Assembly (NCBI GenBank): GCA_001799715.1
Contig: MGTZ01000039.1
Coordinates: 1 to 35,574 of the forward strand
Length of the DNA: 35,574 nucleotides
Origin: Elusimicrobia bacterium GWB2_63_16
GTDB taxonomy: Bacteria; Elusimicrobiota; Elusimicrobia; Elusimicrobiales; UBA9959
Direction of reading: 5' to 3'
Positions 409 to 34,383 of this stretch are shown here, one piece after another. Positions within the stretch are counted from its first letter, which is position 1. Each line of letters begins with the position of its first letter. The translations under genes were made by a program, and so were the position numbers. The notes under the pieces were generated by a model. That model did not search any database, had not been told where the DNA came from, and worked only from the letters and a program-made list of their open reading frames with translations.

Positions 409-420
409 TATAATTAGACT
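409..420 (+). promoter_or_regulatory. Leaderless-type promoter of the arginine decarboxylase gene
   Basis: A perfect TATAAT lies at 409-414 with 6 nt before the ATG at 421, so transcription should begin at about the A of the start codon. There is no Shine-Dalgarno sequence. The -35 region falls inside the preceding terminator and does not resemble TTGACA. The same spacing recurs at five other genes in the window. Confidence 0.65.
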
Positions 421-972
421 ATGTCACTACACCTCGTACCCAAAGAAGTTTTTCTTACGAAGGGCCTCGGCCGCCATAAGGAAAAGCTGGCGAGCTTCGA
501 GGAAGCCCTGCGGGACGCCAAGATAGCCAAGTACAACCTTGTGCACGTCTCCAGCATCTTCCCCCCCTACTGCAAGGTGATACCGGCCAAGAAGGGGCTG
601 GAGAAGCTCAGCGACGGGCAGATCCTGCACTGCGTGCTGAGCCGCAACACGATCAACGAGAACCACCGCCTGATCGCCTCCTCGGTGGGCCTCGCGGTGC
701 CCAAGGACCGCTCCCATTACGGCTACATCTCGGAGCACCACACCTTCGGCGAGACCGACGAGAAGACCGGCGATTACGCCGAAGACCTGGCCGCGATGAT
801 GTTGTCCACCATCCAGGGCGTCGAGTTCGGCAGCGACACCACGTGGGACCAGAAGGAAGAGATCTGGAAGCTCAGCGGCAAGATCGTGCGCGCCGCCAAC
901 ATCACCCAGTCGGCCATAGGGACCGAGGGCGTCTGGACCACCACCGTGGCCGCCGCCGTCTTCCTCTTCTGA
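421..972 (+). CDS. pdaD: Pyruvoyl-dependent arginine decarboxylase
   Basis: It converts arginine to agmatine using a pyruvoyl group made by self-cleavage of the proenzyme. The diagnostic segment NLVHVSSIFPP is at about residues 39-49. By analogy with the archaeal enzyme, cleavage is between Ser44 and Ser45, and Ser45 becomes the pyruvoyl group of the alpha chain. SSVGLAVPKD, the EHHTFGETDEKTGDYAEDLA segment and the C-terminal TEGVWTTTVAAAVFLF are also family-typical. The length of 183 residues fits the archaeal/bacterial family (about 150-190). The start is fixed by a TATAAT box 6 nt upstream and by the lack of an SD. Agmatinase follows 69 nt downstream on the same strand, so the pair should run arginine > agmatine > putrescine. 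Confidence 0.95.
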   Translation: MSLHLVPKEVFLTKGLGRHKEKLASFEEALRDAKIAKYNLVHVSSIFPPYCKVIPAKKGLEKLSDGQILHCVLSRNTINENHRLIASSVGLAVPKDRSHYGYISEHHTFGETDEKTGDYAEDLAAMMLSTIQGVEFGSDTTWDQKEEIWKLSGKIVRAANITQSAIGTEGVWTTTVAAAVFLF

Positions 973-1041
973 CCGCTACCCTGCAGGCGGGGCCAGGGCG
1001 CTGACGCGCCCCGCATCTTCGGGCTTTCAACGGAGACCATC

Positions 1042-1902
1042 ATGAAATTTAAACCGGCTAAAAAACAGTTCATGCGCAACGACGGCGTGAGCCTGGAGAA
1101 CGCGGCCTTCGCGGTGCTGCCGGTGCCCTACGAGCGCACCGTCTCCTACGGCAAGGGCACCAGGCGCGGCCCGGCCGCCATCATCGAAGCCTCCCCGCAG
1201 GTGGAACTGTGGGACGAGGAGACCAAGACCGAGACCTGGAAGAAGGGCATTTTCACCGCGCAGCCGGTGGACTGCTCGCTGCCGGAGGCCAAATTTTTCC
1301 CGCACCTGGAGCGCACGGTGGAGGGGTTGCTGGCCTCCACCAAGGCGATACCGTTCTTTCTCGGCGGCGAGCACAGCGTCACGCAGGCGCTGCTGCCGCC
1401 CTTCATCCGCCGGCACAAGGACCTGTCCATACTGCATTTCGACGCGCACGCGGACCTGCGGACGGAATACCGCGGCTCCCGGCATAGCCACGCCTGCGCC
1501 GTCTACCCGGCCTCGCGCAGCAACAAGGTGGTGCAGGTCGGCATCCGCAGCGTGGGCCACGACGAGCGGCAGTTCCACAACGCCGGCAACGTGCGCACCT
1601 TCCTGATGCACGAGAATTTGGACCTCAAGAAGCTGGAGCGCGACGTGCTGCGGGAACTGAGCGGCACGGTCTACATGACGCTGGATTCGGACGGCTTCGA
1701 CCCGTCCGTCATGCCGGGCACCGGCACCCCGCAGCCGGGCGGCTTCCTGTGGTACGACGCGCTGCGCCTGTTCAAGGCCGTCTGCGCGAAGAAGAGAGTG
1801 GTGGGCGTGGACCTGGTGGAGGTGTCCCCGGTGAAGGGGTCCAACATTTCCGAGTTCAACGCGGCCAAGCTGGTCTACCGCCTGATGGGCTACCTGAGCT
1901 AA
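1042..1902 (+). CDS. speB: Agmatinase (ureohydrolase family)
   Basis: A binuclear-manganese ureohydrolase that splits agmatine into putrescine and urea. The metal-binding motifs are all present in order: GGEHS (His ligand), FDAHADLR (DAHxD) and TLDSDGFDPSVMPGTGTPQPGG (the DxDxxDP motif plus the following Gly/Pro loop). The C-terminal VGVDLVEVSPVKG is also typical. The length of 286 residues is slightly short but complete. The ATG at 1042 is preceded by GGAGA at a good distance. The gene directly follows the arginine decarboxylase, which supports agmatinase over arginase, formiminoglutamase or guanidinobutyrase; the last is the main alternative. A strong bidirectional terminator ends the unit. 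Confidence 0.92.
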   Translation: MKFKPAKKQFMRNDGVSLENAAFAVLPVPYERTVSYGKGTRRGPAAIIEASPQVELWDEETKTETWKKGIFTAQPVDCSLPEAKFFPHLERTVEGLLASTKAIPFFLGGEHSVTQALLPPFIRRHKDLSILHFDAHADLRTEYRGSRHSHACAVYPASRSNKVVQVGIRSVGHDERQFHNAGNVRTFLMHENLDLKKLERDVLRELSGTVYMTLDSDGFDPSVMPGTGTPQPGGFLWYDALRLFKAVCAKKRVVGVDLVEVSPVKGSNISEFNAAKLVYRLMGYLS

Positions 1903-1918
1903 CGCGTCACGGCCGACA

Positions 1919-1949
1919 AAAAAACCGCGGGTGGTCCCGCGGTTTTTTT
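1919..1949. terminator. Bidirectional terminator between speB and a convergent small gene
   Basis: A 12-bp stem (AAAAACCGCGGG with CCCGCGGTTTTT) closes a TGGT loop, with A-tract and T-tract on opposite sides. It can stop speB transcripts on plus and the small gene on minus. Confidence 0.88.
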
Positions 1950-1966
1950 GTTTCCCCGAAATGAGC

Positions 1967-2260
1967 CTAGGGCAGCGCCCCGCTCAGCCAGGGGATCTCG
2001 GCCTTGGCGGCGGCCTGGGCCTCATCCAGGCTCCGGTATTCCTCAACGTGGCCGTGCTTCATGGGGATCCAGCAGGCGTCCATCGTCCTGTCGTCATAGA
2101 CCTCCTCCCGGAAGCCGCAGATCCCGTCCTCCTCGCGGCGGAAGAAACAGACCCGGTGCTTGCCGTCGGGGGCGTGCAGGGTCCTGACCAGCTTTACGGT
2201 GCCGCCGCCCGGCGTCCCGGTAAACAGGGCCGCTAGGGCCTTAAGTATTTTTTCGAGCAT
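1967..2260 (-). CDS. Small hypothetical protein (97 aa)
   Basis: I do not recognise a family. The protein starts with a short hydrophobic, weakly amphipathic stretch (LEKILKALAALFTG) and continues as a soluble-looking acidic/basic region with a HRVCFFRREEDGICGF core and a C-terminal SLDEAQAAAKAEIPW helix. I chose the ATG at 2260 because a G-rich SD (GGGGGGTC) lies just upstream. The longer reading from a TTG at 2275 is less likely. It looks real because the convergent terminator at 1919-1949 sits immediately behind its stop and its composition is that of a normal protein. Its 5' end faces the divergent receiver-domain gene. Confidence 0.62.
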   Translation of the reverse strand: MLEKILKALAALFTGTPGGGTVKLVRTLHAPDGKHRVCFFRREEDGICGFREEVYDDRTMDACWIPMKHGHVEEYRSLDEAQAAAKAEIPWLSGALP

Positions 2261-2282
2261 AATCCGACCCCCCAAAATTTGA

Positions 2283-2294
2283 TATTATTCTGCC
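2283..2294 (+). promoter_or_regulatory. Leaderless-type promoter of the receiver-domain gene
   Basis: TATTAT at 2283-2288 is followed by exactly 6 nt and the ATG at 2295, with no SD. No convincing -35 is visible. Confidence 0.55.
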
Positions 2295-2672
2295 ATGGCT
2301 CCGCGGAAAAAAATACTGGTCGTCGACGACGACAAAACGCTGCAGATGATACTGAAAACGGCCTTCAAGAAGGCCGGCTACCAGGTGATCCCCGCGCTGG
2401 ACGCCATGCAGGGCCTGATGATGGCCAGGCAGGTCAAACCCGACCTGGTAGTGCTCGACATGATGATGCCGGCCGGAGGCGGCCAGTCCGTCTACGAACG
2501 GCTGCAGATGATGGCCGGCTCCTTCGAAGTCCCGGTACTGATCTACTCGGCCATGCCGCCGCAGGAGATCGCCAAGTTCATCCCTGAAGGGCCGCAGATC
2601 AAAGTCCTGAACAAATCCGCCACTATCGCCGAAGTGCTGGCCGCGGCGGAAGCCCTGCTGGCCGGCGCCTAG
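2295..2672 (+). CDS. Stand-alone response regulator receiver protein (CheY-like)
   Basis: A single receiver domain with no output domain. The acidic pocket is DDD at residues 11-13, and the phospho-acceptor is Asp55 in LVVLDMMMP. A Ser in LIYSAMPP sits at the Thr/Ser switch position, and KVLNKSA gives the conserved Lys, here followed by Ser and not the usual Pro. Such proteins act as phosphate shuttles or bind a target protein; no histidine kinase is encoded nearby, so the partner is unknown. The start is preceded by a -10 box with leaderless spacing. Its stop overlaps the stop of the convergent dehydrogenase gene: both TAG codons lie within one CTAG at 2669-2672. Confidence 0.88.
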   Translation: MAPRKKILVVDDDKTLQMILKTAFKKAGYQVIPALDAMQGLMMARQVKPDLVVLDMMMPAGGGQSVYERLQMMAGSFEVPVLIYSAMPPQEIAKFIPEGPQIKVLNKSATIAEVLAAAEALLAGA

Positions 2673-3778
2673 AAATTTTCCAGCGAGTCGAACTCCGACA
2701 CCTTCTTCCTCTCCATCAGGTGGCCCATGTCGCGGCTGAACGCGAAGGGCCCCTTGGGCCAGCCGAAAGCCAGCTTTACCGCCGTCTCGATATCGTACTC
2801 CGAGGCCATGATCTCGGAGGCCAGCAGCCTGGCCTCCTCCACCACCGGCCGCATGATCTCGGCGAAGATGTCGTCCTTGAAGGTCTTCTTCAGCCCCAGG
2901 TACTTGACCAGATTCGGCAGGATGGGGTTCTCGCCCACTATGCGGCCTTCCTCGTAGATATAAAAACCTATCGTGGACTTGCGGCCCAGCTGGCCGTACT
3001 GCACCAGCCGCTGCAGCGTGGCGGAAGGCGCCAGCCGCTCGGGCTTGCCCAGCGCGTTATAGAGGGCTTCGGAGGCGGCGTAATCCGAGTCCAGGCCGGC
3101 GCAGTCGGCCATCTCGAACGGGCCCAGCGGCGCGCCCGACACTTCACGGAAGGCGGCGTCTATCTCGTGCGGGTGGCCCTTGCCGGAATCCATCAGGCGC
3201 AGCGCGGCCAGCAGGAAAGGCCGGGTAAGCCGCTCCACCACCTGGCCGGGGTTGTCCTTGGTGATCACCGGGGTCTTGCCGATCTTGCGCAGCAGCGCGG
3301 CGGCGGCTTCGAGATACTCGTCCTTGGTATGGTCCGTGCGCACCACCTCCACCAGCGGGTTGGAGCGCACCGGTTTGATGAAATGGAAACCCAGCGTGCG
3401 CTCGTTGGGCAGCTCGCCGAAACCTATCACCTCTGACAGCGGCTGCACGGCGCAGCGCGCAGCCACCACGCAATGCTGGTCCAGGTGTTTGCGCAGCTTG
3501 GAGAAATAGAGGCGGCGCTCGTCCTGCGACTTGGAGGCGGCCTCGATGACGATGTCGGCCCCGCTGAACTTGGAGAGGTCCTGTATGCCCTCTATGTTCC
3601 CCATCAGCTCTTCCTTGCCGGCCTGCCGCAGCGACCAGGCGATCTTGGCCAGCGCCACGTTGAGGCTGTCCTTGAAATCGTCGTAGAGGCGCACCTGGAA
3701 GCCGTGCTTGACGAACAGCTCCGCCGCCGCTGCGCCGGTGGTGTTGGACCCCATGATACCGATAGCGTTTATTTCCAT
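2669..3778 (-). CDS. 3-hydroxyacyl-CoA dehydrogenase-family protein with altered active site
   Basis: The layout is an N-terminal Rossmann domain (residues about 1-185; glycine motif GIMGSNTTG at 7-15) followed by two copies of the helical 3HCDH C-terminal domain. The first copy has SGAPLGPFEMADCAGLDSDY and the second GWPKGPFAFSRDMG. Family members oxidise 3-hydroxyacyl-CoA with NAD+ in beta-oxidation or related pathways. The catalytic His132 (GFHFIKPV) and Glu144 (LVEVV) are kept. The usual Ser of the SNTSS motif is replaced (AARCAVQ, about 108-109), and the usual Asn of PGFxxNR is Glu182 (PGQVVERL). Activity or substrate may therefore differ from the classical enzyme. There is no thiolase or enoyl-CoA hydratase nearby. 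It follows the membrane-protein gene by 23 nt and may be co-transcribed with it. Confidence 0.82.
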   Translation of the reverse strand: MEINAIGIMGSNTTGAAAAELFVKHGFQVRLYDDFKDSLNVALAKIAWSLRQAGKEELMGNIEGIQDLSKFSGADIVIEAASKSQDERRLYFSKLRKHLDQHCVVAARCAVQPLSEVIGFGELPNERTLGFHFIKPVRSNPLVEVVRTDHTKDEYLEAAAALLRKIGKTPVITKDNPGQVVERLTRPFLLAALRLMDSGKGHPHEIDAAFREVSGAPLGPFEMADCAGLDSDYAASEALYNALGKPERLAPSATLQRLVQYGQLGRKSTIGFYIYEEGRIVGENPILPNLVKYLGLKKTFKDDIFAEIMRPVVEEARLLASEIMASEYDIETAVKLAFGWPKGPFAFSRDMGHLMERKKVSEFDSLENF

Positions 3779-3801
3779 AGTTGCAGACCCGGCGGGCCGC
3801 G

Positions 3802-5352: not shown

Positions 5353-5479
5353 AAGGGCGCGGCCTGCGCGGCTATTATTTTATATATATTAAGCCGCTTC
5401 CGCCATTGCCCCCTGCGCGCCATTAACAACAGAGAGCGGCTTTTAAGGCGGTGGAAGGCATGGATCGCGTTCCTGCGGG

Positions 5480-6952: not shown

Positions 6953-7009
6953 ATTTTCTTTCGCAATGCCGCCTCCCGCCCGGCTTAAAGCCGGACCCCG
7001 TTATTCCCA

Positions 7010-7015
7010 ATTATA
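7010..7015 (-). promoter_or_regulatory. Candidate -10 box for the TPR gene
   Basis: A perfect TATAAT on the minus strand lies about 58 nt before the ATG at 6952. No clear -35 is seen, so this is a position-based guess. Confidence 0.35.
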
Positions 7016-7127
7016 AGAAATTAATGCCGCGGCGGCGGGCCCGGCGTAGAAAGCGGCCCGCCGTAAAGAGCTATGCGTCTCGGACAGCCAAGGGCGCGCC
7101 GGAATACTAAAGAGACAGGTTCCGGAT

Positions 7128-9303: not shown

Positions 9304-9351
9304 TATTAAGGAGATATTGACTTTAGCGCTTTAATATACTATCCTTAATAT
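9304..9351 (+). promoter_or_regulatory. Leaderless promoter and nested dyad (probable autoregulatory operator) of the LexA-family gene
   Basis: TTGACT (9317-9322), a 17-nt spacer, TATCCT (9340-9345) and 6 nt lead to the ATG at 9352; no SD is in position. The whole promoter lies inside an inverted repeat: TATTAAGGA at 9304-9312 and TCCTTAATA at 9342-9350 are perfect arms. Inside them are ATATT/AATAT (9314-9318, 9333-9337) and a central AGCGCT (9325-9330). A repressor dimer bound here would cover both promoter boxes. Confidence 0.7.
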
Positions 9352-10008
9352 ATGCATCCTATACAAGAGAAGCTCCTGAACCTTTCCAAAGAGCGCAATT
9401 TGGCCCAGGCCAGCCTGCGCGAGATGGCCGCCGCCATAGGCCTGCCGGACGAATCCCCCCAGAAGATCAAGCATCACCTGCAGCAGCTGGAGAAAAAAGG
9501 CTTCTTCACTATAGACCGCGCCAAGGGCCTGATGGAAAAAGCCTCCCTGCTGCCCGGGCTGGCCAGCGGCCTGCTGAAAGAGGCCTCCTCTCTTTTCTCC
9601 ATTCCCATAGTCGGCATGGCCAATTGCGGGCCGGCCACGGTTTTCGCCGAGCAGAATTTCGAGGGTTTCCTGCGCGTCTCGGGGCGGCTGCTGGGCCGGA
9701 GCAACCCGGCCGGCCTCTACGCCATCCGGACCAACGGCTCGTCGATGAACCGCGCCGAGATAGCCGGCAAGAAGATAGAGGACGGCGACTACGTGGTGAT
9801 CGACAGCAACAAGCGCGTGCCCGGCAACAACGACATCGTGCTGGCCATCATAGACAACAAGGCCACCATCAAGCGCTTCATAGACGACCGCGCCAACGGC
9901 CAGGTGATCCTCAAGGCCGACTCCTCCCACGATTACGACCCCATCTACCTGCACCCCGACGACGACTTCCTCATCAACGGCAAAGCCGTCGCCGTCATCA
10001 AAAAATAG
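9352..10008 (+). CDS. LexA-family transcriptional repressor (S24 self-cleaving)
   Basis: The N-terminal winged-helix DNA-binding domain spans residues about 1-55 (ASLREMAAAIGLPDESPQKI then HHLQQLEKKGFF, as in LexA). A linker and an S24 peptidase domain follow. The catalytic Ser is Ser131 in TNGSSMNRAEI and the Lys is Lys174 in ATIKRFI. The position of the usual Ala-Gly cleavage bond reads VGMANCGPA, so the scissile bond would be Cys92-Gly93, the pair cut in UmuD. Under DNA damage, RecA filaments would stimulate cleavage and relieve repression. The divergent neighbour is recA and the promoter carries a dyad, both supporting a LexA role; a phage-type repressor is the alternative. Length is 218 aa, near LexA. 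The stop TAG is supplied by the first copy of a palindromic repeat. Confidence 0.88.
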   Translation: MHPIQEKLLNLSKERNLAQASLREMAAAIGLPDESPQKIKHHLQQLEKKGFFTIDRAKGLMEKASLLPGLASGLLKEASSLFSIPIVGMANCGPATVFAEQNFEGFLRVSGRLLGRSNPAGLYAIRTNGSSMNRAEIAGKKIEDGDYVVIDSNKRVPGNNDIVLAIIDNKATIKRFIDDRANGQVILKADSSHDYDPIYLHPDDDFLINGKAVAVIKK

Positions 10009-11310: not shown

Positions 11311-11559
11311 ATGGCAAACGAGAAATTCATGAAAACGATGCAGCCTGACGCCGAACTGGGCGCCGTCATTGGGAACGAGCCCGTCGCCCGCCCCACCGCC
11401 GTCAAGAAGATCTGGGACTACATCAAGAAGAACAACCTTCAGGACAAGGTCAACAAGCGCAACATCAACGCTGACGAGAAGCTCCTGAAAGTGTTCGCCG
11501 GCAAGAAGCAGGTCACGATGTTCGAACTGGCCGGCATCCTGGGCAAGCACCTGAAATAA
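11311..11559 (+). CDS. SWIB/MDM2-domain protein (82 aa)
   Basis: The whole protein is one SWIB domain: a short N-tail, then RPTAVKKIWDYIKKNNLQD, KRNINADEKLLKVFAGKKQV and MFELAGILGKHL, which match the conserved blocks of eukaryotic SWI/SNF-complex B domains and their small bacterial relatives. Bacterial SWIB proteins are mostly stand-alone and poorly studied; DNA- or chromatin-related roles are proposed, for instance in Chlamydiae. It is strongly basic. The ATG is preceded by an excellent AAGGAG SD at 11297-11302 with 8 nt spacing, suggesting good expression. The leader also contains a small CCTCT/AGAGG hairpin. A dedicated terminator follows, so it is probably monocistronic. Confidence 0.9.
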   Translation: MANEKFMKTMQPDAELGAVIGNEPVARPTAVKKIWDYIKKNNLQDKVNKRNINADEKLLKVFAGKKQVTMFELAGILGKHLK

Positions 11560-17224: not shown

Positions 17225-17260
17225 TTGACCGCCCCGGCGGTTTATCGCTAACATTGGATT
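17225..17260 (+). promoter_or_regulatory. Leaderless promoter of rsmH
   Basis: TTGACC (17225-17230), an 18-nt spacer and TAACAT (17249-17254) are followed by 6 nt and the ATG at 17261. There is no SD. This is one of the two most complete promoters of this class in the window. Confidence 0.72.
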
Positions 17261-18322
17261 ATGACCGAAGAGGCCCCCAAGCCCCATAAACGCCGCGAGC
17301 GCTACAGCGGCAAACACCCGCGCAATTTCGCGCAAAAATATAAAGAGCTGGACCCGGCCAGGTACGCCGAACAGATAGAGCATATCATCGCCAAGGGCCT
17401 CACGCCGGCCGGCACGCACCGGCCCATCTGCGTGGACGAGATCCTGAAGATCCTCGATCCAAAGCCGGGCGAGACCGCCTTCGACGCCACGCTGGGCTAC
17501 GGCGGCCATACGAGGAAGCTGCTGGAAAAACTGCTGCCCGGAGGACGGCTGTTCGCGGTGGACGTGGACACGGTGGAGATGCCCAAGACCGAGGCGCGCC
17601 TGCGCGCCGAGGGCTACGGCCCGGAAGCCCTGGTAGTACGCAAAATGAATTACGCCGGCATCCTGGGCCTGCTGGGCGAGGCCGGCGGCGGCTTCGACTG
17701 CGTGCTGGCCGACCTGGGCGTGTCGTCTATGCAGCTCGACAATCCCGAGCGCGGCTTCACCTACAAGGCCGACGGCCCGCTGGACCTGCGCCTCAATCCC
17801 GAGCGCGGCCGCCCGGCCTCAGAATTTCTTAAGACCGTCTCCCGCGATAAGCTCGCCGCCCTCCTGGAGGAGAACGCCGACGAGCCCCACGCGCTGACCA
17901 TAGCCGCGGCCATCAAGGAAAGCCCGGCGGCCATCCTCACCACCGCGAATCTGGCCGAAACCGTGCGGGCCGGACTCAAGCGCGCCCACCCCAAGCTGGG
18001 CGAGGACGTGGTCAAGAAATCCCTGCAGCGCGTCTTCATGGCGCTGCGCATAGAGGTCAACGACGAGTTCAGCGCGCTGGACCGCTTCCTGGCGGCCCTG
18101 CCCTGGTGCCTCAAACCCGGCGGCCGCGCGGCCATCCTGACCTTCCACTCCGGCGAGGACCGCCGCGTGAAGAAGGCCTTCGCCAAGGGCGAGGCCGAAG
18201 GTTTGTACTCCGCCGTCTCCCCCGCCCCGGCGCGGCCTTCCCCGGCCGAGCGCCGCTCCAACCCCCGCTCCGCCTGCGCCAAGCTGCGCTGGGCCGTGCG
18301 CTCTCCCGCGCCGGCGGCCTGA
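17261..18322 (+). CDS. rsmH: 16S rRNA (cytosine-1402-N4)-methyltransferase
   Basis: An SAM-dependent methyltransferase for N4 of C1402 in the ribosomal decoding centre. Family marks are HRPICVDEIL near the start of the domain, ATLGYGGHT (SAM motif I), ADLGVSSMQLDNPERGFTY, DGPLDLRLN, RVFMALRIEVNDE, ILTFHSGEDRRVKKAF and RSACAKLRWA. It differs from standard RsmH in having a 45-residue basic N-terminal extension and the change FHSLEDR to FHSGEDR. It also sits outside the usual division and cell-wall (mraZ-ftsL) cluster. It could be the only RsmH or a divergent paralogue. The start is supported by a -35/-10 pair with leaderless spacing. The baeRF gene follows on the same strand after about 120 nt. 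Confidence 0.92.
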   Translation: MTEEAPKPHKRRERYSGKHPRNFAQKYKELDPARYAEQIEHIIAKGLTPAGTHRPICVDEILKILDPKPGETAFDATLGYGGHTRKLLEKLLPGGRLFAVDVDTVEMPKTEARLRAEGYGPEALVVRKMNYAGILGLLGEAGGGFDCVLADLGVSSMQLDNPERGFTYKADGPLDLRLNPERGRPASEFLKTVSRDKLAALLEENADEPHALTIAAAIKESPAAILTTANLAETVRAGLKRAHPKLGEDVVKKSLQRVFMALRIEVNDEFSALDRFLAALPWCLKPGGRAAILTFHSGEDRRVKKAFAKGEAEGLYSAVSPAPARPSPAERRSNPRSACAKLRWAVRSPAPAA

Positions 18323-18446
18323 ATACTTGCGCCGGCGGCCCCGAAATATTGTATTCTGTGCTTGGGTAAGGGTTAAGAATAACAACAAGCTTTCCACCGG
18401 TCCGCGCCGCGGGCCATAACCCCATTTGAAAGGGGGAGTCATGATA

Positions 18447-19592
18447 ATGAAGAGAGAGGAATTAAAAGCGCTCATGGACGTGAGGACGGGGCCCTGCGTC
18501 TCGATCTATTTGCCCACGGAGAAGGGCAGTATAGAGACGAGGCAGAACCCGGTGCGCCTGCGCAAACTGCTCAAGGAGGCCGAACACAAGCTGCTGGCCT
18601 CGGGGACCAGGACGCTGGACGCCAAAGACCTGCTGGCGCCCGCGAGGCAGATGCTGGAAGATAACCTGTTCTGGCAGTACCAGAGCGGCGGGCTGGCCGT
18701 TTTCCTGTCCCGCGGGATAAAGCGGGCCTATACGCTGCCGCTGGCCTTTACCGAGATGGCCGCCGTGAACGACAGGTTCTGCGTGCGGCAGCTGCTGCCG
18801 TTTTTCGCCGAGGACGGGCGCTATTGCGTGCTGACGCTGAGCCAGCGCTCGGTACGGCTGTTCCAGTGCACCCGGCACAGCGTGGCCGAGGCGGACCTGA
18901 GCCAGGCCCCCAAGAGCGTCGCGGACCTGCTGGAGCTCAACGCCGGAGAGAAGCAGCTGCAGTTCCACGCCAACGGCGCGGGGCGCGGCGCGCGCGGCGG
19001 CGGGGCCGGCATGTTCCACGGCCACGCCGAGGACACGGACGAGGCCAAGGAGAACATCCTGGTCTATTTCCACGGCGTCAACCGGGCGGTCAACTCGCTG
19101 ATAGGCTCCAACGGCCCGCTGGTGCTGGCCGGCGTGGACTACCTGACGCGCATTTACGAGAAAGCCAACACTTACCCCCGCCTGGCCGAGGACCGCATCA
19201 CCGGCAACCCGGCCGAGTTGAGGCCGGAAGAGCTGAAGGACAGGGCCTGGGAGATAGTGCGGCCCGGCTTCGAGGCGGGAGCCAGGGCGGCGGCGGCGGT
19301 GTTCGAACAGCTGCAGGGCACGCCGCGGGCTTCCAACCACCTCAAGACCATACTCGCGGCCGCCAACGACGGCAGGGTGGCCACGCTGCTGGTGTCGGCC
19401 AGGGACCAGCGCTGGGGCATCTACGACGACGCCTCCGGCGTGATAGATCTCCACGCCAAGCCGGACCCGGCCGACATGGAGCTGCTGGAGCTGTGCGCGG
19501 CGCGCACGCTGGACCACGGCGGCCAGGTATACGCCCTGGAGCCCGAGCGCATGCCGGGCCGGGCGCCCGCGGCGGCCGTCTTCAGGTACTGA
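18447..19592 (+). CDS. baeRF-domain protein (bacterial archaeo-eukaryotic release-factor homologue)
   Basis: It resembles the bacterial baeRF families (distant relatives of eRF1/Pelota) proposed to act at ribosomes. Seen are the N-terminal block TGPCVSIYLPTEKGSIETRQ, QNPVRLRKLLKEAE, a middle LSQRSVRLFQ strand, and a Gly-rich loop (NGAGRGARGGGAGMFHG) in the place of the release-factor GGQ loop, without a GGQ itself. The C-terminal part (HLKTILAAANDGRVATLLVS then WGIYDD) resembles the eRF1 domain 3 or L7Ae-like fold. I favour the ATG at 18447 because the SD AGGGGGAG (18431-18438) is 8 nt away; ATG 18441 would be too close. Lying behind rsmH, it suggests a translation theme. A bidirectional terminator follows. 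Confidence 0.78.
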   Translation: MKREELKALMDVRTGPCVSIYLPTEKGSIETRQNPVRLRKLLKEAEHKLLASGTRTLDAKDLLAPARQMLEDNLFWQYQSGGLAVFLSRGIKRAYTLPLAFTEMAAVNDRFCVRQLLPFFAEDGRYCVLTLSQRSVRLFQCTRHSVAEADLSQAPKSVADLLELNAGEKQLQFHANGAGRGARGGGAGMFHGHAEDTDEAKENILVYFHGVNRAVNSLIGSNGPLVLAGVDYLTRIYEKANTYPRLAEDRITGNPAELRPEELKDRAWEIVRPGFEAGARAAAAVFEQLQGTPRASNHLKTILAAANDGRVATLLVSARDQRWGIYDDASGVIDLHAKPDPADMELLELCAARTLDHGGQVYALEPERMPGRAPAAAVFRY

Positions 19593-19648: not shown

Positions 19649-20791
19649 TCAGCGCAGCAGCGCGCCCTTCTCTGCCCAGATCTTCTCCATAGCCTGCCGC
19701 GGCGCGGGCCGCGGCGCGTCCAACTCGCGCGCTATCACGCCCAGCAGTTCCACCAGGCCGTGGAAATCCGCCGCCGCCACATGCTCCTGACCCACGCGGG
19801 CCTTCTTACCCCTGGCCACGCCGTCGAGGTCGGCCATGTTGTGGTAATTGCCCAGCGGCAGGCACAGGCAGGTGGAACTGAGGCCGTAGAAAGAGAAAGC
19901 CGAGGCCTCGCAGACCCCGCCCGGCATCAGCTTGCGCTGGAATTTAAAGGCCGGGTTGGCCTTCTGGTAGGCCGCCGCGGCGTTGGAGACCAGATTGGTC
20001 AGCTCCGGCGTGAACACGCTCATCCTGTCGCCCACGCGCACTATGGGGCCGCCGCCGATGGGCGAATCGTGCGGGAAACTGCGGGAACATTCCAGGCAGA
20101 CCAGGCGGGCGTTCTTCGGGATGGTGCCGCCGCGCGCCGCGCCGATGGCGCCCACGAAGCCCACCTCCTCGGCCCGGGTGAACAGCAGCGCGGTATGGGC
20201 CAGTTTTTTGTCCCTCGATATGCCGTCGTAGGCGGTCAGCGCCGCCGCAACGGCGGCCAGGTCGTCGCAGGCCTGGGTGTAGGCCACGCCTTTCTTTATC
20301 GAAGCCGCGGGGAACTTCCAGCGCCCGAGACAGCCCGGCTTCAGCGGGGCGGGCCCGGCCAGCCGGGCCGTGACCGTCTTGAAAGGCTTGGCCGCCGGGT
20401 CCAGCGAGGTCACCCGGGCGGGGTAGCTGCGGGACAGGTCTTCGGAGAAGATCTCTATGGCCGCGTCCTTGAAATAGGCGTCCTGCACGCCGCCGCGGAA
20501 TTCCAGCCGCAACTCCCGGCCCTCGGCGGAGAGCACGATAAAAGCCGGGTGGTCCAGGTGGGCGGTGATGAACAGCGGGGGGTTGCGGCGGCACGCGCGC
20601 TTAAAATCGGCGCGGGTTATCAGCAGGTTGCCGTGCCTGTCGCTCGCAAGGGCGAGGTGGGGCCGGGCTTCGACCCAGGCCCCCACGAAACGGATAACGG
20701 CCCCTTCGTGCGCGGCCGCCGTGGGCAGCGAGGTGACTTCAAGCAGGAATTTCTCGCGTCTCTTGAGCTCGGCTGAACTGGTCTTTTTCAT
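19649..20791 (-). CDS. M42/M28-like zinc aminopeptidase
   Basis: A co-catalytic metallopeptidase of the clan MH type. Visible candidate ligand motifs are FITAHLDHPAF (HxD), ACDDLAAVAAAL (bridging Asp), FTRAEEVGFVGA (Glu-Glu, catalytic base and ligand), LVCLECSRS and LPLGNYHNMAD (terminal His). This order fits M42 glutamyl aminopeptidases, and the low similarity of the flanks suggests a divergent subgroup. There is no signal peptide, so it probably acts on peptides in the cytoplasm. The start is uncertain: ATG 20791 follows GGAGG but at only 3 nt, while ATG 20848 would add 19 Arg/Ala-rich residues. It diverges from the ChaN-like gene. Confidence 0.82.
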   Translation of the reverse strand: MKKTSSAELKRREKFLLEVTSLPTAAAHEGAVIRFVGAWVEARPHLALASDRHGNLLITRADFKRACRRNPPLFITAHLDHPAFIVLSAEGRELRLEFRGGVQDAYFKDAAIEIFSEDLSRSYPARVTSLDPAAKPFKTVTARLAGPAPLKPGCLGRWKFPAASIKKGVAYTQACDDLAAVAAALTAYDGISRDKKLAHTALLFTRAEEVGFVGAIGAARGGTIPKNARLVCLECSRSFPHDSPIGGGPIVRVGDRMSVFTPELTNLVSNAAAAYQKANPAFKFQRKLMPGGVCEASAFSFYGLSSTCLCLPLGNYHNMADLDGVARGKKARVGQEHVAAADFHGLVELLGVIARELDAPRPAPRQAMEKIWAEKGALLR

Positions 20792-20888: not shown

Positions 20889-20900
20889 TATAATTGAAAT
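20889..20900 (+). promoter_or_regulatory. Leaderless-type promoter of the ChaN-like gene
   Basis: A perfect TATAAT (20889-20894) with 6 nt before the ATG at 20901; no SD and no clear -35. Confidence 0.6.
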
Positions 20901-21920
20901 ATGAAGACTTTACTCTTTTCCCTGCTGCTGGTACTGCCCCTGGCCCTCTCGGCCAAACCCGTGAAGAAGCCCGAAGCCAATATAGAGAAGAGGAAAGCCG
21001 CGGCCGTTGAGGCCCCGGTAGTGCTGACCACCTCCGCCCCCAATTTCTGCCTGTTCGGCGGCCAGAGCGGCAAGCCCGCCAAGGGCGAGGCCGCCTTCAT
21101 GAGCGTGGTCTGGAAGAACGACGTGGTCTACGTCGGCGAGACGCACGACCAGGCGCTGGACCACCTGGCGCAGTACGAGGCGCTCAAGGCCATGAAGATA
21201 GCGCGCGGCTCGCGCATCGCCGTCGGCTTCGAGATGCTTAACCAGACGCTGCAGCCGGTGCTGGACGATTACGCCGCCGGCCGCATCACCGAGGAGGAAT
21301 TCCTCACCCGCGCGGACTGGAAGAAAGAATGGGGCTTCGACTTCGCCATGTACAAGCCGCTGTTCGATTTCATCGTGGCCAACAAATTGCGCGCGCTCGC
21401 GCTGAACGTGCCGCGCAAGGTGGTGGGCAAGGTGGCCCGCACCGGCCTGGCCAGCCTGACGCCGGAGGAGAAAGCTTTCCTGCCCGAGAAGGTGGAGATC
21501 ACCGGCCACAAGAAGTACAACGAGTACCTGAAGGCCACTTTCGGCGCGCACGGCGACTCGCCCATGGCCAAGATGTTCACCGTGGAGAATTACCTGGCCT
21601 CGATGGCCGCCTGGAACGAGGGCATGGGCGCGCGCGTGGCCGATTTCCTGACGGTTAATCCCGGCTACGCCGTGCTGGTAGTGGCGGGCAACGGCCACCT
21701 GCTCTACAACGCCGCCATCCCCGCCTCGGTCAAGGCGCGCGTGAAAGGCGTGCGGCAGGCCTCCTTCTACACCGAGCAGGCCGCCGCCTGCCCCGAGACC
21801 ATGCCCAAGGAGCACCGCGACATGGCCAACTACGTGTGGTACATCAACCACCCGCCCAAGCCCGAACCCGCGCCGGCCGCCATGCCCGCGGTCAGCACCG
21901 CCCCAGCCGCGGCGCAGTAA
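20901..21920 (+). CDS. Exported ChaN-like haem/iron-regulated protein
   Basis: A short signal peptide (LLFSLLLVLPLALSAK) and a charged linker precede a ChaN-type domain. Family-typical segments are VVYVGETHDQALDHLAQYEAL, VGFEMLNQTLQPVLDDYAAG, DWKKEWGFDFAMYKPLFDFI, LALNVPRKVV and VVAGNGHLLY. ChaN-like proteins bind haem or are iron-regulated; the fold relates to the EreA/TIKI hydrolase superfamily, so an enzymatic role is possible. The GETHD and GNGH motifs place His residues where that superfamily has its active-site pocket. The C-terminus is a Pro/Ala tail. It starts with leaderless spacing behind TATAAT. An MFS transporter follows 24 nt downstream, suggesting a shared uptake or efflux task, possibly for iron or haem. 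Confidence 0.85.
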   Translation: MKTLLFSLLLVLPLALSAKPVKKPEANIEKRKAAAVEAPVVLTTSAPNFCLFGGQSGKPAKGEAAFMSVVWKNDVVYVGETHDQALDHLAQYEALKAMKIARGSRIAVGFEMLNQTLQPVLDDYAAGRITEEEFLTRADWKKEWGFDFAMYKPLFDFIVANKLRALALNVPRKVVGKVARTGLASLTPEEKAFLPEKVEITGHKKYNEYLKATFGAHGDSPMAKMFTVENYLASMAAWNEGMGARVADFLTVNPGYAVLVVAGNGHLLYNAAIPASVKARVKGVRQASFYTEQAAACPETMPKEHRDMANYVWYINHPPKPEPAPAAMPAVSTAPAAAQ

Positions 21921-29342: not shown

Positions 29343-30382
29343 CCCGCGCTGCCGGACCGCGCGTGCCCGGCGAAGTCCGCGTCGATCTTGTAGTACTTGT
29401 AAGTCAGCTTGGCCACGCGCGAGATGAAAGTTTTGGCGCTGGAGTAACTGGGCACCTCCGAGGTGAGCACCGCTATCACGAAATCCCCGCGCGGAGAGAA
29501 CACGACGCCCACGTCGTGGCAGGCCTTGCGCAGCAGGCCGGTCTTATGGCCTATCTCCCAGCCGAGCGGCAGGCCGCGGCGCAGGCGGCTGCGGCTCTTG
29601 GTATGCTTGAGCACGTCCAGCATGAACTCGCTGGCCTCGCGGTCCACCAGTTTCCCGGCGTAGATCCGCTCCATCAGGCCGCCCATCTCGCGGGCGGTGG
29701 TATAGTTCTCCCGGCGCACCGGCCGCGAGGAGAGGCTCATGCCCTCGGGGGTGATGTTGGTCTGCTCCAGGTTCATCGCCCTGAAAGCCCCGGACAGGTA
29801 ATCCATGCCCACGGCGTCTATCAGCATCTTCGTGGCGGTGTTGTCGCTCTCGGTGATCATCTTGTAGATGATCTCCATCACGGAGAGGGAGGTGCCTTCG
29901 CGCACCCATTTCAAAGAACCCGAGCCGCCCACGCGCAGGCCGCGCGTCAGCTTGATCTGCGTGTCCAGGCTGAGCCGCCCGCCGCGGATGCTCTCGAAGA
30001 CCGCGGCCATGATCGGCACCTTGATCAGGCTGGCGGAGGGAAATCTGCGGTCGGCGTTGTACTCCCAGGACTTGCCGGTCTCGAGGTCCTTGATGTAGAT
30101 GCCCACGCGGCCGCTGTAGGCGCGCGAGGCCTTCTCCAGGTCCTCCACCAGTTCCAGCCACTCGGCGTCCCGGATAGGGGCCTCGATGACGCGCCTGGGC
30201 TCCTGTTCCGTCCCGGCGGCCCCGGTGAGCAGCATGGCCGCGCGGTACACGGCGAAGCCGCCGCCCGCGGCTATCAGCAGGGCCAGCAGCCCCTTGCCCG
30301 CGAGCCTGTAAAAGCCGCCGCCCCCCGGCTTGCGCGCGGGGGTCGGGGTATGGGGCTGGCTGTGGGCGCGGTGAGGCTGCAA
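29339..30382 (-). CDS. Class A beta-lactamase-fold serine hydrolase, membrane-anchored
   Basis: An N-terminal cytoplasmic tail and one TM helix (LLALLIAAGGGFAVYRAAML, about residues 32-51) anchor a periplasmic penicillin-binding-like domain. The three serine-enzyme motifs are present: Ser118-x-x-Lys121 (SASLIK), Ser179-Asp180-Asn181 (ESDNTAT) and Lys280-Thr281-Gly282 (HKTGLL). The omega-loop ExxLN motif that supplies the deacylating Glu of true class A beta-lactamases is not evident (NITPEGMSLSSRPVRRENY). It may therefore be a DD-peptidase-like or other esterase, and resistance should not be assumed. The start is a TTG at 30382, 23 nt after the clpC stop; no ATG is available before the TM helix. 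It ends in ATGA overlap with the small membrane protein. Confidence 0.8.
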   Translation of the reverse strand: MQPHRAHSQPHTPTPARKPGGGGFYRLAGKGLLALLIAAGGGFAVYRAAMLLTGAAGTEQEPRRVIEAPIRDAEWLELVEDLEKASRAYSGRVGIYIKDLETGKSWEYNADRRFPSASLIKVPIMAAVFESIRGGRLSLDTQIKLTRGLRVGGSGSLKWVREGTSLSVMEIIYKMITESDNTATKMLIDAVGMDYLSGAFRAMNLEQTNITPEGMSLSSRPVRRENYTTAREMGGLMERIYAGKLVDREASEFMLDVLKHTKSRSRLRRGLPLGWEIGHKTGLLRKACHDVGVVFSPRGDFVIAVLTSEVPSYSSAKTFISRVAKLTYKYYKIDADFAGHARSGSAG

Positions 30383-30405
30383 GCGGTAGTCCCGGGTGAG
30401 GGCGC

Positions 30406-32880
30406 TTACTGGACCTTGAGTTCCAGCGCGTCGCCCTCGCCCTTGTAATCCACTTTCACCACGTCGCCCTGCTTCATCGTGCTGTTGAGCAGGAACTCCG
30501 CCATCGGGTCCTCCAGGTACTTCTGCACGGTGCGGATCAGCGGGCGGGCGCCGTAGTTCGGGTCAAAGCCTTTCTTGACGAGGAAGGTCTTGGCGGCCTG
30601 GGTGATGGTGAACTTCACGCCCTTGGCTTCGAGCTTCTTATCCACCTTCACGAGGCTGAGCTCCAGGATCTTCTCGGTGTCGGCCTCGGTGAGCGGGCGG
30701 AACACGATGACCTCGTCGATGCGGTTGATGAACTCGGGGTTGAAGACGCGCTTCACCTCGTCCATCACCGTGTCCTTCATTTCCTTGTAATCCTTTTCCT
30801 TGTCGTCGGCGGGCATGAAGCCCAGGGTCTTGCCCTTGGAGATCAGGCGGGCGCCCACGTTGGAGGTCATGATGAGGATGGCGTTCTTGAACGAGACCTT
30901 GTGGCCCAGGCTGTCGGTCAGCGTGCCCTCGTCCATGATCTGCAGCAGGATGTTGAACACGTCGGGGTGGGCCTTCTCGATCTCGTCGAGCACGACCACG
31001 GAGTAGGGCTTGCGGCGCACCAGCTCGGTGAGCTTGCCGCCCTCCTCGTAGCCGACGTAGCCGGGGGGCGCGCCGATGAGGCGGCTCACGGAGAACTTCT
31101 CCATGTACTCGCTCATGTCGATACGCACCATGGCTTCCTCGTTGCCGAACATGAAGTCCGCGAGCACGCGGGCCAGCTCGGTCTTGCCCACGCCGGTGGG
31201 GCCCAGGAAGATGAAATTACCGATGGGCCGCTTGGGGTCCTTCATGCCGGTGCGGCTGCGCTTGATGGCCTGGGACACTATGGTGACGGCCTCGTCCTGG
31301 CCGATGAGGCGCTTGTGGATGGCGCCTTCCATGTGCTGCAGCTTCTGCGTCTCGGTCTCCGTCATGCGGGTGACCGGGATGCCGGTCCATTTGGAGGCGA
31401 TCTGCGCTATGTCCTCTTCCGTGACCTCCGGGAAAACTTTGTCGCGGCCTTCGCGCCACTTCTTCTTGGTCTCTTCGAGGGCCTTCTTCAGCTCCTTCTC
31501 CTTGTCGCGCAGCTTGGCGGCTTTCTCGTACTCCTGGCCGTAGATGGCGGCGTTCTTTTCCTTGGCCGTCTCCTCGATCTCCGCCTCCTTCTCCTTGAAC
31601 TCCGGCGGGGCGACGCTCAGCTTCAGGCGGGCGCGGCTGCCGGCCTCGTCGAGCAGGTCGATGGCCTTGTCGGGCAGGGCGCGGTCGGTGATATATTTGT
31701 CGGACAGCTGGGCCGCGGCGAAGATGGCCGGGTCCGTGTATTTGCACTTGTGGTGGCTCTCGTACTTGTCCTGCAGGCCCTTGAGGATCTCGATGGTCTC
31801 CTCCACGGTGGGCTGCTCCACCACCACCGTCTGGAAGCGGCGTTCGAGGGCCGGGTCGTGCTCGATGTGCTTGCGGTACTCGTCGAAGGTGGTGGCGCCG
31901 ATGCACTGCAGCTCGCCGCGCGCGAGCGCGGGCTTGAGCATGTTGGAGGCGTCGATGGCGCCCTCGGCGGCGCCGGCGCCGATGACGGTGTGCAGCTCGT
32001 CGATGAACATGATGATCGAGTTCTTGGCCTTGCGGATCTCCTCGATGATGCCCTTGAGGCGCTGCTCGAACTCGCCGCGGTACTTGGTGCCGGCCACTAT
32101 GGACGCGAGGTCCAGGGAAAGCAGGCGCTTGCCCACCAGCGTGTCGGAGATCTCGCCGGCGGCTATCTTCTGGGCGAGGCCCTCCACGATGGCCGTTTTG
32201 CCCACGCCGGGCTCGCCTACGAGCACGGGGTTGTTCTTGGTGCGGCGGCCGAGCACCTGGATCAGCCGGTCCACCTCGTTGGAGCGCCCTATGACGGGGT
32301 CCAGCTTGCCTTCCTTGGCCATCTGGGTCAGGTCGCGGGCGAACTCGTCGAGAATGGGGGTCTTGGTCTTGCCCTTGGCGGCGGAGTGGGCGTGGCCCTT
32401 GGCCGGCGGGGTCTGGGACTCCTTCGGGGAATCCTTCTGCTCCATCTCGCCGAGGATGCTGAGCACCTCCTCGCGGACGGTCTCGAGCTTGAGGCCCAGG
32501 TTCTCCAGCACGCGGGCGGCGACGCCCTCTTCCTCGCGGATGAGGCCGAGCAGGATATGCTCGGTACCGATGTAGGAGTGGCTCATATGCTGGGCCTCTT
32601 CCACGGCGTATTCCAGCACCTTCTTGGCGCGCGGGGTGAAGGGTATCTCGCCCAGCAGCATCATGTTGTCGCCGGTGCCCACGATCTTTTCTATCTCGGC
32701 GCGCACCTTGCGCAGGTCGATGCCGAGATTCTGGAACACCTGCGAGGCGACGCCCTCGGAGAGGGCGATCAGGCCCAGCAGTATGTGTTCGGTGCCCACG
32801 TAGTCGTGGTTAAGGCGCTTGGCCTCTTCCTGGGCGATAAGAATGACGCGCTGAGCCCTGTCGGTAAACCTTGTTCCCAT
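30406..32880 (-). CDS. clpC: ATP-dependent Clp protease ATPase subunit ClpC
   Basis: A hexameric AAA+ unfoldase that feeds substrates to ClpP. The domains are: a double Clp N-domain (residues about 5-145; FTDRAQRVILIAQEEAKRL); AAA-1 with Walker A GEPGVGKT (222-229) and Walker B MFIDELHT; a UVR-motif linker (about 443-470, YEKAAKLRDKEKEL) that marks ClpC over ClpA/B; AAA-2 with Walker A GPTGVGKT (560-567); and a C-terminal D2-small domain. The length is 825 aa. ATG 32880 has an ideal SD (GGAGG, 32891-32887), while a TTG 72 nt upstream is unlikely. clpP, ctsR and mcsB are not in the window. The next five genes follow closely on the same strand. Confidence 0.96.
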   Translation of the reverse strand: MGTRFTDRAQRVILIAQEEAKRLNHDYVGTEHILLGLIALSEGVASQVFQNLGIDLRKVRAEIEKIVGTGDNMMLLGEIPFTPRAKKVLEYAVEEAQHMSHSYIGTEHILLGLIREEEGVAARVLENLGLKLETVREEVLSILGEMEQKDSPKESQTPPAKGHAHSAAKGKTKTPILDEFARDLTQMAKEGKLDPVIGRSNEVDRLIQVLGRRTKNNPVLVGEPGVGKTAIVEGLAQKIAAGEISDTLVGKRLLSLDLASIVAGTKYRGEFEQRLKGIIEEIRKAKNSIIMFIDELHTVIGAGAAEGAIDASNMLKPALARGELQCIGATTFDEYRKHIEHDPALERRFQTVVVEQPTVEETIEILKGLQDKYESHHKCKYTDPAIFAAAQLSDKYITDRALPDKAIDLLDEAGSRARLKLSVAPPEFKEKEAEIEETAKEKNAAIYGQEYEKAAKLRDKEKELKKALEETKKKWREGRDKVFPEVTEEDIAQIASKWTGIPVTRMTETETQKLQHMEGAIHKRLIGQDEAVTIVSQAIKRSRTGMKDPKRPIGNFIFLGPTGVGKTELARVLADFMFGNEEAMVRIDMSEYMEKFSVSRLIGAPPGYVGYEEGGKLTELVRRKPYSVVVLDEIEKAHPDVFNILLQIMDEGTLTDSLGHKVSFKNAILIMTSNVGARLISKGKTLGFMPADDKEKDYKEMKDTVMDEVKRVFNPEFINRIDEVIVFRPLTEADTEKILELSLVKVDKKLEAKGVKFTITQAAKTFLVKKGFDPNYGARPLIRTVQKYLEDPMAEFLLNSTMKQGDVVKVDYKGEGDALELKVQ

Positions 32881-32953
32881 CGTAGTCCTCCGTAAATAAG
32901 CAAAAAATCGGCTAAAAAAATAACTTCGGCGAATATACACGCGCCGAACCAAT

Positions 32954-32959
32954 ATTATA
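32954..32959 (-). promoter_or_regulatory. Candidate -10 box of clpC, abutting the upstream terminator
   Basis: A TATAAT on minus (32959-32954) begins 3 nt after the T-tract of the preceding gene's terminator and gives a leader of about 65 nt. No -35 is visible because the terminator stem occupies that position. No CIRCE-like or CtsR-like repeat was seen. Confidence 0.5.
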
Positions 32960-32962
32960 TAT

Positions 32963-33012
32963 AAAAAGGGGGCGCCGCTGGGCGGTTTAAGAGGATAAAC
33001 CGGCGCGCCCCC
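32963..33012 (-). terminator. Intrinsic terminator of the NfeD-type gene
   Basis: On minus, GGGGGCGC pairs with GCGCCCCC and, within it, CGGTTTA pairs with TAAACCG around TCCTCT. A T5 tract (32967-32963) follows. Confidence 0.88.
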
Positions 33013-33024
33013 GTACCCGGGAGG

Positions 33025-34371
33025 TTACTTGGCGGCGCGGACACGCACCTTGAAGCCTTCCACGGCGGCAACTTCCACCTCGGCGCCGGCGGGGATGTCG
33101 CCGGAGACGCTCTCGGCCTCCCACAGCTCGCCTTCCACCAGCACGGTGCCCTTCGGGGCCAGCGCGGTCTTGGCCAGGCCGCGCTTGTCCTTGAGGCTTT
33201 CTATGCCGGTCACCACGCCGCGCAGCTGCGCACGCAGGGCGATATAGGCCACGCCGGCCACCACGGCTATCAGGCCGATCACGGTAGTAAGGAGCATGCT
33301 CATAGAAATAGTCAGACCTCCCAGGGAGGGCTGGTTGAACAGCATCAGCCCGCCCATCAGCACCGCCGCCGCGCCGGCCAGGGTCAGCAGGCCGTAGCTG
33401 ACCACCTTGATCTCGGCGATGAAGAACACGAAGCCCAGCAGGATCAGCGCCACGCCTGCGAAATTGGCAGACAGCGTCTGGAAAGAATAGAAGGCCAGCA
33501 CCAGCGACACCGCCCCCACCACGCCGGGCAGGATCAGTCCGGGGTTGTAGAGCTCTATGAACAGCCCGGCCGCGCCGAGGCTCATCAGGATCATCGCGAT
33601 ATTAGGGTCGGTGATGGTGGCCAGGAACTTCTGCCGGCGCGTCTGCCCGAAATATTCCACGGCGGCCCCGGCGCATTTGAGCGCGCCGAACTCCCCCGCC
33701 CTGCGGCCGTCGGCCTTGCGCAGGAACTCCTCTATGCCGGCCGCGGTGAAATCGGCCACGCCCAGCTTGACGGCCTCCTCGGCCGGGATGGAATCGCTCT
33801 GGCGCACCGCCTTGATGGCCCAATCGGCGTTGCGGCCGGTCTTCTGCGCTATGGACTTGATATAGGCCGCCGCGTCGTTGAGCATCTTCTCGTCCATCGG
33901 GTCTTTCCTGACGGCGCCTTTCTCCTTATCCTTCTCTTTGCCCATGCCGGGCAGGCCGCCCATCACCACCGGATGCGCCGCGCCGATATTGGTGCCAGGC
34001 GCCATGCCCACCAGCGGGGAAGCCATGGAGATGAAGACGCCGGCCGAGGCCGCCCGCGCGCCCTGCGGGGAGACATAGACGGCCACGGGCTTTTTGGAGG
34101 CCAGCATGGCCTTGATGATCTCGCGCATGGAGGTATCCAGGCCGCCGGGCGTGTCGAGAGCTATCACCAGCAGGTCGGCGCCGCCCGGGGCGTTCACCTT
34201 GGCCACGGCGCCGGAGATGAACTCGGCGGCGGCCGGGGTGATGACGCCGGAATAGGGCGCCACCACGACGGTTTTCACCTCGTAGACCGAGGCGGTTTTT
34301 TTAACCGGGGCCGCCGCGAGCAGCGGCAGCAGCGAGGCGAGCAGGATAATTTTTTTCATAATATTCCCCAT
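33025..34371 (-). CDS. NfeD-type membrane serine protease (ClpP-fold plus C-terminal OB domain)
   Basis: A signal/anchor (IILLASLLPLLAAA) leads into a ClpP/crotonase-fold protease domain. LLVIALDTPGGLDTSMREII provides the oxyanion Gly-Gly, and Ser109 in GARAASAGVFISMAS is the likely nucleophile. A Lys in DEKMLNDAAAY (Lys162) is the candidate base of the Ser-Lys dyad. About five TM helices follow (for example IAMILMSLGAAGLFIELY), then a C-terminal NfeD/OB domain (TVLVEGELWEAESVSGDIPAG). Related archaeal proteases cleave stomatin partners, but no stomatin gene is adjacent here. TATAAT with 6-nt spacing favours the ATG at 34371 (leaderless); ATG 34359, behind GGGGA, is the alternative. Its terminator lies just before clpC. 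Confidence 0.9.
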   Translation of the reverse strand: MGNIMKKIILLASLLPLLAAAPVKKTASVYEVKTVVVAPYSGVITPAAAEFISGAVAKVNAPGGADLLVIALDTPGGLDTSMREIIKAMLASKKPVAVYVSPQGARAASAGVFISMASPLVGMAPGTNIGAAHPVVMGGLPGMGKEKDKEKGAVRKDPMDEKMLNDAAAYIKSIAQKTGRNADWAIKAVRQSDSIPAEEAVKLGVADFTAAGIEEFLRKADGRRAGEFGALKCAGAAVEYFGQTRRQKFLATITDPNIAMILMSLGAAGLFIELYNPGLILPGVVGAVSLVLAFYSFQTLSANFAGVALILLGFVFFIAEIKVVSYGLLTLAGAAAVLMGGLMLFNQPSLGGLTISMSMLLTTVIGLIAVVAGVAYIALRAQLRGVVTGIESLKDKRGLAKTALAPKGTVLVEGELWEAESVSGDIPAGAEVEVAAVEGFKVRVRAAK

Positions 34372-34383
34372 TCGCTAATTATA
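34372..34383 (-). promoter_or_regulatory. Leaderless-type promoter of the NfeD-type gene
   Basis: On minus, TATAAT (34383-34378) is followed by TAGCGA and then ATG at 34371. A TTTTTA at 17 bp upstream, within the terminator T-tract of the preceding gene, is the only -35 candidate. Confidence 0.6.

Follow-up and report, generated by a model that had tools for sequence, protein, structure and literature searches.

How is a gene started when a promoter-like hexamer lies where the ribosome binding site would be expected? The question is raised by a stretch of 35,574 nucleotides from Elusimicrobia bacterium GWB2_63_16 (contig MGTZ01000039.1, positions 1 to 35,574, called here the window), in which a preliminary description had noticed six genes with the layout TANNNT-N6-ATG, the number after N being the length of the spacer between a -10-like hexamer and the start codon. 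All six layouts can be read in the sequence, each hexamer ending exactly 6 nt before the ATG, and the two -35 boxes described with them are present as well (Table 1). The genes that had been set apart as ordinary (recA, clpC and those at 1042, 10229, 11311 and 23263) indeed carry leaders of the GGAG or GGAGG type, i.e. Shine-Dalgarno (SD) sequences. It is considered, with a probability of about 0.9, that five of the six window genes, together with approximately 5-6% of the sampled ATG-start genes beyond background, are expressed from leaderless messages beside SD-led genes.

According to the mechanism proposed here, the TANNNT hexamers would be sigma70-type -10 elements, with the A of the start codon as the first base transcribed. 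The usual start point of a -10 element lies about 7 bases downstream of it. A message made in this way by RNA polymerase would open with the AUG, its 5' end being inferred to lie at the A, and such a leaderless mRNA would be translated without an SD sequence. Leaderless mRNAs are initiated by 70S ribosomes or by pre-loaded 30S subunits. Matches to the S1 domain are present in the genome and leave the mode of leaderless translation undecided.

Spacing of the hexamer across the genome

The source genome (62 contigs that add up to 2,866,887 bases; the window lies on contig 39) was compared with G110, the genome of another species of the same genus. A codon-usage score that is blind to upstream sequence was used to call genes, 997 of them in 1.196 Mb (42%) of the source genome and 663 in 0.79 Mb (23%) of G110. 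The preliminary description had proposed plotting the position of TANNNT before gene starts, the lack of a positional peak counting against the idea; in the sampled 42% of the genome a peak was found at spacer 6, and it appeared again in G110. TANNNT stands at this spacer in 65 of 798 called ATG starts of the source genome, the other 35 spacers holding 4-29 each with a mean of 14.4 (Poisson P 1.7e-22 for spacer 6). The less sharp peak of G110 comprises 32 of 552 ATG starts, with 4-24 at other spacers and a mean of 12.1 (Poisson P 1.5e-6). For GTG and TTG starts of the source genome the count at spacer 6 is 7 of 188, and 0-6 at other spacers. In the whole source genome TATAAT-N6-ATG occurs 63 times, the reversed pattern 5 times and TATAAT-N15-ATG 7 times. 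The excess at spacer 6 in the sample corresponds to about 50 of the 798 ATG genes (about 6%), or to about 42 genes (about 5%) when hexamers at most one letter off TATAAT are used.

It might be supposed that AT-rich hexamers fall near starts by chance in a compact genome, and TANNNT does occur at all spacings, at weaker counts. The likelihood of this explanation is practically negligible. In the first sample TANNNT stands at spacer 6 before 38 of 497 ATG starts as called, and before 1 of 3818 ATGs that lie in frame inside the genes; the reversed pattern, the N15 spacing, the internal ATGs and the Poisson estimates all agree that the signal exceeds random expectation. Chance is also opposed by two window genes at which the hexamer is kept while its flanks diverge, as set out below. 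Reciprocal best hits between the two species numbered 97, of which 25 without matched ATGs were dropped and 72 pairs kept. The layout is present in 12 of these genes in the source genome (the doubtful case at 34371 included) and in 6 in G110; it is shared by 6 pairs, 3 of them outside the window, where 1.0 shared pair would be expected.

Conservation within the genus

Orthologues of the window genes were sought across 31 genomes of the genus, with only the best loci being used and the window's own row included in the row counts. The best 20 loci were read for the ChaN-like gene (of 29 genomes matched), the pyruvoyl-dependent arginine decarboxylase (PvlArgDC; of 30) and the NfeD-family gene (of 29), 20 of 21 matching loci for the LexA-like repressor and 9 of 20 for the response regulator, whose remaining 11 loci are paralogues with identities no higher than 41%. 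Upstream identity to the window was measured ungapped from the ATG, only in relatives with TANNNT at N6 (ChaN 18, PvlArgDC 18, LexA 17, response regulator 4), and flanks were taken as 24-base upstream blocks.

The spacing is N6 in 19 of 20 rows for PvlArgDC (N5 in the remaining one) and in 19 of 20 for the ChaN-like gene (N7 in one). The hexamer of PvlArgDC is 1.00 identical to that of the window in the 18 N6 relatives and its flanks 0.31-0.44; for the ChaN-like gene the values are 0.99 and 0.31-0.40, and the 6-nt spacers of both genes are 0.37-0.44 identical. Both the hexamer and its distance from the start codon are apparently under selection at these two genes, as a leaderless promoter requires. 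Two PvlArgDC orthologues (L242, L250) are each one N-terminal codon shorter and still have their ATG at N6. LexA has N6 in 18 of 20 rows and N7 in 2; its spacing is weaker evidence because the flanks are 0.80-0.81 identical to the window and so have not diverged. The response regulator has N6 in 5 of 9 rows and N7 or N8 in 3, and a paralogue of 38% identity is without the layout.

These orthologues bear on another explanation, namely that the ATGs are mis-called and the -10 element serves a short-leader gene with an SD-led start a few codons downstream. This is probably true for 34371 (see below), and 2 of 40 candidates of G110 were flagged for it. As a general explanation it is very unlikely. 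Of 76 candidates of the source genome none had, in the next 12 codons, another ATG with an SD match of at least 5, by a test that misses GGGGA as at 34359, and in the rows read the orthologues of the genes at 421, 9352 and 20901 have the same ATG or one a single codon off, with the hexamer spacing nearly always kept.

Promoter features and position in transcription units

If the hexamers are promoters, further promoter features that played no part in the selection may be looked for, and 43 candidates of the source genome were compared with 258 intergenic controls. Inside the hexamer the bases are T, A and A in 51, 70 and 72% of candidates. The extended -10 TG is found in 11 of 43 candidates and 4 of 258 controls, T at -17..-15 in 58-70% and 20-26%, respectively. 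A -35 match of at least 4/6 is present in 13 of 43 candidates, with about 3.9 in shuffles. A pyrimidine stands at -1 in 81% (source genome, n=59) and 83% (G110, n=29) of candidates and in 62% of the 258 controls. Candidates are predominantly first genes of transcription units in both species: 8 of 75 are operon-internal in the source genome against 425 of 893 (P 6e-11), and 2 of 40 against 253 of 619 in G110 (P 9e-7). Divergent neighbours are commoner for candidates of the source genome (37 of 75 against 165 of 893). An SD match of at least 5 is found in 0 of 43 candidates and 164 of 615 of all genes.

Since the hexamer occupies the usual SD position, it could be taken for a signal that acts in translation, as an AT-rich ribosome site of a non-SD kind, and not for a promoter. 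This is highly improbable, as the extended -10 TG, the -35 enrichment, the pyrimidine at -1 and the depletion from operon interiors are all features of promoters. Furthermore, the same TATAAT is found 18-48 nt upstream of an SD-led start, that of the NfeD-family gene, in 17 of 19 relatives.

The NfeD-family gene

The sixth case is doubtful. On the minus strand TATAAT (34383-34378) lies 6 nt before the ATG at 34371. When the start codon closest to the expected position is taken in each of the 19 genus relatives, TANNNT-N6 is found in none. An SD-like purine run is present at the start in 18 of 19 relatives (by a loose pattern without a control). TATAAT lies no more than 60 nt upstream in 18 of 19 as well, in 17 of them at the 18-48 nt given above. 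The gene probably starts at 34359, its fifth codon, behind GGGGA and with a predicted leader of about 12 nt, and 34371 is probably not its start. Four relatives have an in-frame upstream start codon near a -10-like hexamer (L260, TATAAT-N6-GTG; L271, TATTCT-N6-ATG; L277, TATAAT-N5-ATG; L261, TATAAT-N9-ATG), so that 34371 may be used as an additional leaderless start.

Distribution in the phylum

The layout was also counted in 110 of 119 genomes of the phylum, in family groups that were chosen post hoc, after the counts had been seen. N6 exceeds N15 in the own genus (220 vs 52, 4 genomes), the rest of the own family (444 vs 202, 8 genomes), family f2 of the same order (1692 vs 557, 33 genomes), family f7 of the class (137 vs 40, 5 genomes) and the other families of the class (110 vs 55, 6 genomes). 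Elsewhere in the phylum the counts are 1717 vs 1411 in f9 (38 genomes), 447 vs 411 in f10 (8 genomes) and 389 vs 398 in f16, f17, f18 and f20 (8 genomes), with N6 being 1.6-fold, 1.5-fold and 0.96-fold the reversed pattern, respectively. Judged by these counts, the class has a strong signal and f9 a weak one, and none can be seen in f16, f17, f18 and f20. The 9 genomes outside this summary (families f11-f15, f19 and f21) hold 232 N6 and 181 N15.

At single genes the picture is less stable. Same-family orthologues of PvlArgDC have TATAAT at N9 (L152) and N7 (L153), read by eye, and many orthologues of the same order have purine-rich sites in place of the hexamer. The layout at single genes turns over between genus and order. 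A wider reading would make leaderless expression ancestral in the class Elusimicrobia, with the exact 6-nt spacing selected and with a leaderless cohort that could hypothetically be switched apart from SD-led genes. This is regarded as unlikely; the excess of N6 in the class, with none in f16, f17, f18 and f20, fits its ancestral half.

Points against leaderless expression as a regular mode

Several observations weigh against the interpretation preferred here. The motif alone over-calls, since 34371, one of six cases, is probably wrong. Among 12 close relatives of the stand-alone RsmH-like gene, the window excluded, N6 is present in 6; ten of these 12 records carry the name Elusimicrobia or Elusimicrobiales and 2 just 'bacterium'. 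In class-wide samples N6 is rare at two of the genes that keep it in the genus, with 4 of 21 rows for PvlArgDC and 3 of 27 for LexA, the window included (3 of 30 LexA loci gave no hit). Spacer 6 of G110 is scarcely above the best other spacer (32 vs 24, P 0.07), and hexamers are shared between the two species at other spacers too, up to 3 pairs at spacer 11. Of the leadered TATAAT promoters, 0 of 19 in the source genome and 5 of 14 in G110 carry the extended -10 TG, so that this feature may not be general and the two promoter sets may not be alike in it. Divergent neighbours are not significantly in excess in G110 (11 of 40 vs 129 of 619), and the absence of SD sequences is partly forced because the hexamer fills their slot. 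Nevertheless, the earlier proposal of leaderless transcription as a regular, mixed mode is supported by the peaks, the depletion from operon interiors, the promoter features and the conservation; support is lacking for the case at 34371 and for functional sorting, treated below.

Comparison with known systems

Leaderless expression in this genome is an instance of an already known bacterial mechanism. Of 953 bacterial genomes, 207 were reported by Zheng et al. 2011 (PMC3160421) to carry the TA-led signal defined there. The genes discussed here resemble those TA-led genes in their -10-like TANNNT about 12 bp before the start and in the presence of SD-led genes in the same genome. They differ in that the groups named in the part of the paper available do not include Elusimicrobia (one genome is 'unclassified') and in their fraction, about 5-6% here against about 20% in Actinobacteria and 40% in Deinococcus-Thermus. 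In Deinococcus it has been demonstrated by mutation that the -10 motif adjacent to an open reading frame (ORF) acts as a promoter (PMC12340547). As here, TANNNT in Deinococcus-Thermus precedes the ORF by about 6-7 bp, and there too no pathway bias is reported in the accessible portion of that source; in contrast, that system belongs to another phylum and comprises about one third of genes. The GeneMarkS-2 classification, as quoted in the accessible text of PMC9581028, puts leaderless transcription in 21.6% of bacterial species, and its leaderless class likewise has leaderless and SD-led genes sharing one genome. Elusimicrobia are among the classes with the anti-SD CCUCCUUU in the available part of PMC10783764, so SD initiation is also at their disposal. 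No description of leaderless genes in Elusimicrobiota was found in the available parts of the mainly non-subscription literature, searched without older phylum names.

In a phylum that is little studied and for the most part uncultured, conservation now supports, beside motif counts, the view that leaderless genes are a class that is maintained. For metagenome-assembled genomes (MAGs) of Elusimicrobia a practical rule can be given: TANNNT exactly 6 bases before an ATG, checked in relatives, may yield corrected starts and promoters. The turnover of the layout from genus to order could be used for studying the way in which a gene passes from one of the two modes of initiation, SD-led or leaderless, to the other.

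Functional sorting and other patterns

It had also been suggested that the two modes are functionally sorted; this part was not borne out, nor was any special role of the leaderless genes. Of 54 candidates that lie outside the window and whole within one sampled stretch, 30 were scanned against Pfam, as were 20 of the 91 first genes with SD leaders; functions were mixed on both sides, compared by eye with no formal test. Codon adaptation is lower in leaderless genes of the source genome (0.656 vs 0.717, P 5.5e-5) and no lower in G110 (0.716 vs 0.707, P 0.88); expression sorting by codon bias was rejected as not robust, the difference being gone in the second species.

A fusion of terminator and promoter, with a GC hairpin and T-run seemingly abutting many leaderless promoters, was rejected too, as results were inconsistent between species and gene orientations. 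For codirectional genes folding of -58..-14 was more stable than in controls in the source genome (27 leaderless vs 207 controls, median -14.3 vs -9.6, P 6e-4) and gave P 0.12 in G110 (22 vs 161 genes); for divergent genes the values were P 0.12 in the source genome (26 vs 114) and P 0.02 in G110 (8 vs 76). A hairpin stem with its end 13-35 nt upstream of the start was counted in 6 of 23 vs 31 of 166 codirectional and 6 of 19 vs 6 of 92 divergent genes. Compact divergent leaderless pairs show no excess (4 of 101 in the source genome vs 3.4 expected, 0 of 70 in G110 vs 0.4 expected). Two divergent pairs in which both genes are leaderless candidates lie on contig 46 at 20387-20433 (L035), with 46 bases between the ATGs, and on contig 37 (L306:4550-5736), with 47 bases between them.

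Features of the window

Table 1. Promoter-like elements and start sites in the window
Feature	Position	Strand	Remarks
TATAAT-N6-ATG, PvlArgDC (gene 421-972)	409..423, hexamer 409-414	+	Pfam PF01862
TATTAT-N6-ATG, single-domain response regulator (gene 2295-2672)	2283..2297, hexamer 2283-2288	+	PF00072
TATCCT-N6-ATG, LexA-like repressor (gene 9352-10008)	9340..9354, hexamer 9340-9345	+	PF00717, PF01726
-35-like TTGACT, lexA promoter	9317..9322	+	17-nt spacer
TAACAT-N6-ATG, stand-alone RsmH/MraW-like methyltransferase (gene 17261-18322)	17249..17263, hexamer 17249-17254	+	PF01795
-35-like TTGACC, RsmH-like gene	17225..17230	+	18-nt spacer
TATAAT-N6-ATG, ChaN-like haem-binding protein (gene 20901-21920)	20889..20903, hexamer 20889-20894	+	PF04187
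TATAAT -10 of NfeD-family gene, probably ordinary leadered promoter	34378..34383	-	17/19 relatives with TATAAT 18-48 nt before start
NfeD-family gene from probable true start	33025..34359	-	ATG 34359; GGGGA 34369-34365

The -35 element of lexA reads TTGACT or TTGACA in 14 of 20 rows and TTGCCT in 5 of 20 (by eye). An inverted repeat, TATTAAGGA ... TCCTTAATA (9304-9312 and 9342-9350), flanks the -35 and -10 elements of this promoter and overlaps the -10; it is probably an autoregulatory operator. The ATTAAGGAG of its upstream half was seen by eye in 20 of 20 genus rows, and ATTAAGGANATA occurs three times in the 42% genome sample, once at lexA.

The RsmH-like protein has its closest named relatives in HGW-Elusimicrobia-3 (91%), GWC2_64_44 (88%) and GWB2_63_22 (87%). 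Its TTGACC box is also present in four related loci (L041, L044, L046, L080), and the gene in G110 has no N6 layout. In three orthologues (L043, L047, L048) a hairpin-like GC stretch plus TTTTTTGCC abuts the ATG, with no -10 at N6 (upstream of position 3001). Matches listed outside Elusimicrobia belong to Rhodoferax, Omnitrophota, Bacteroidetes and other MAGs, at 52-61% identity. There is a hint from these protein comparisons that the gene could belong to an RsmH lineage of its own, which may have been transferred.

A scan of the window with Rfam gave no family at or above its gathering score. Pfam assigns a SWIB/MDM2-domain protein to 11311-11559 and a baeRF-family (release-factor-like) protein to 18441-19592.

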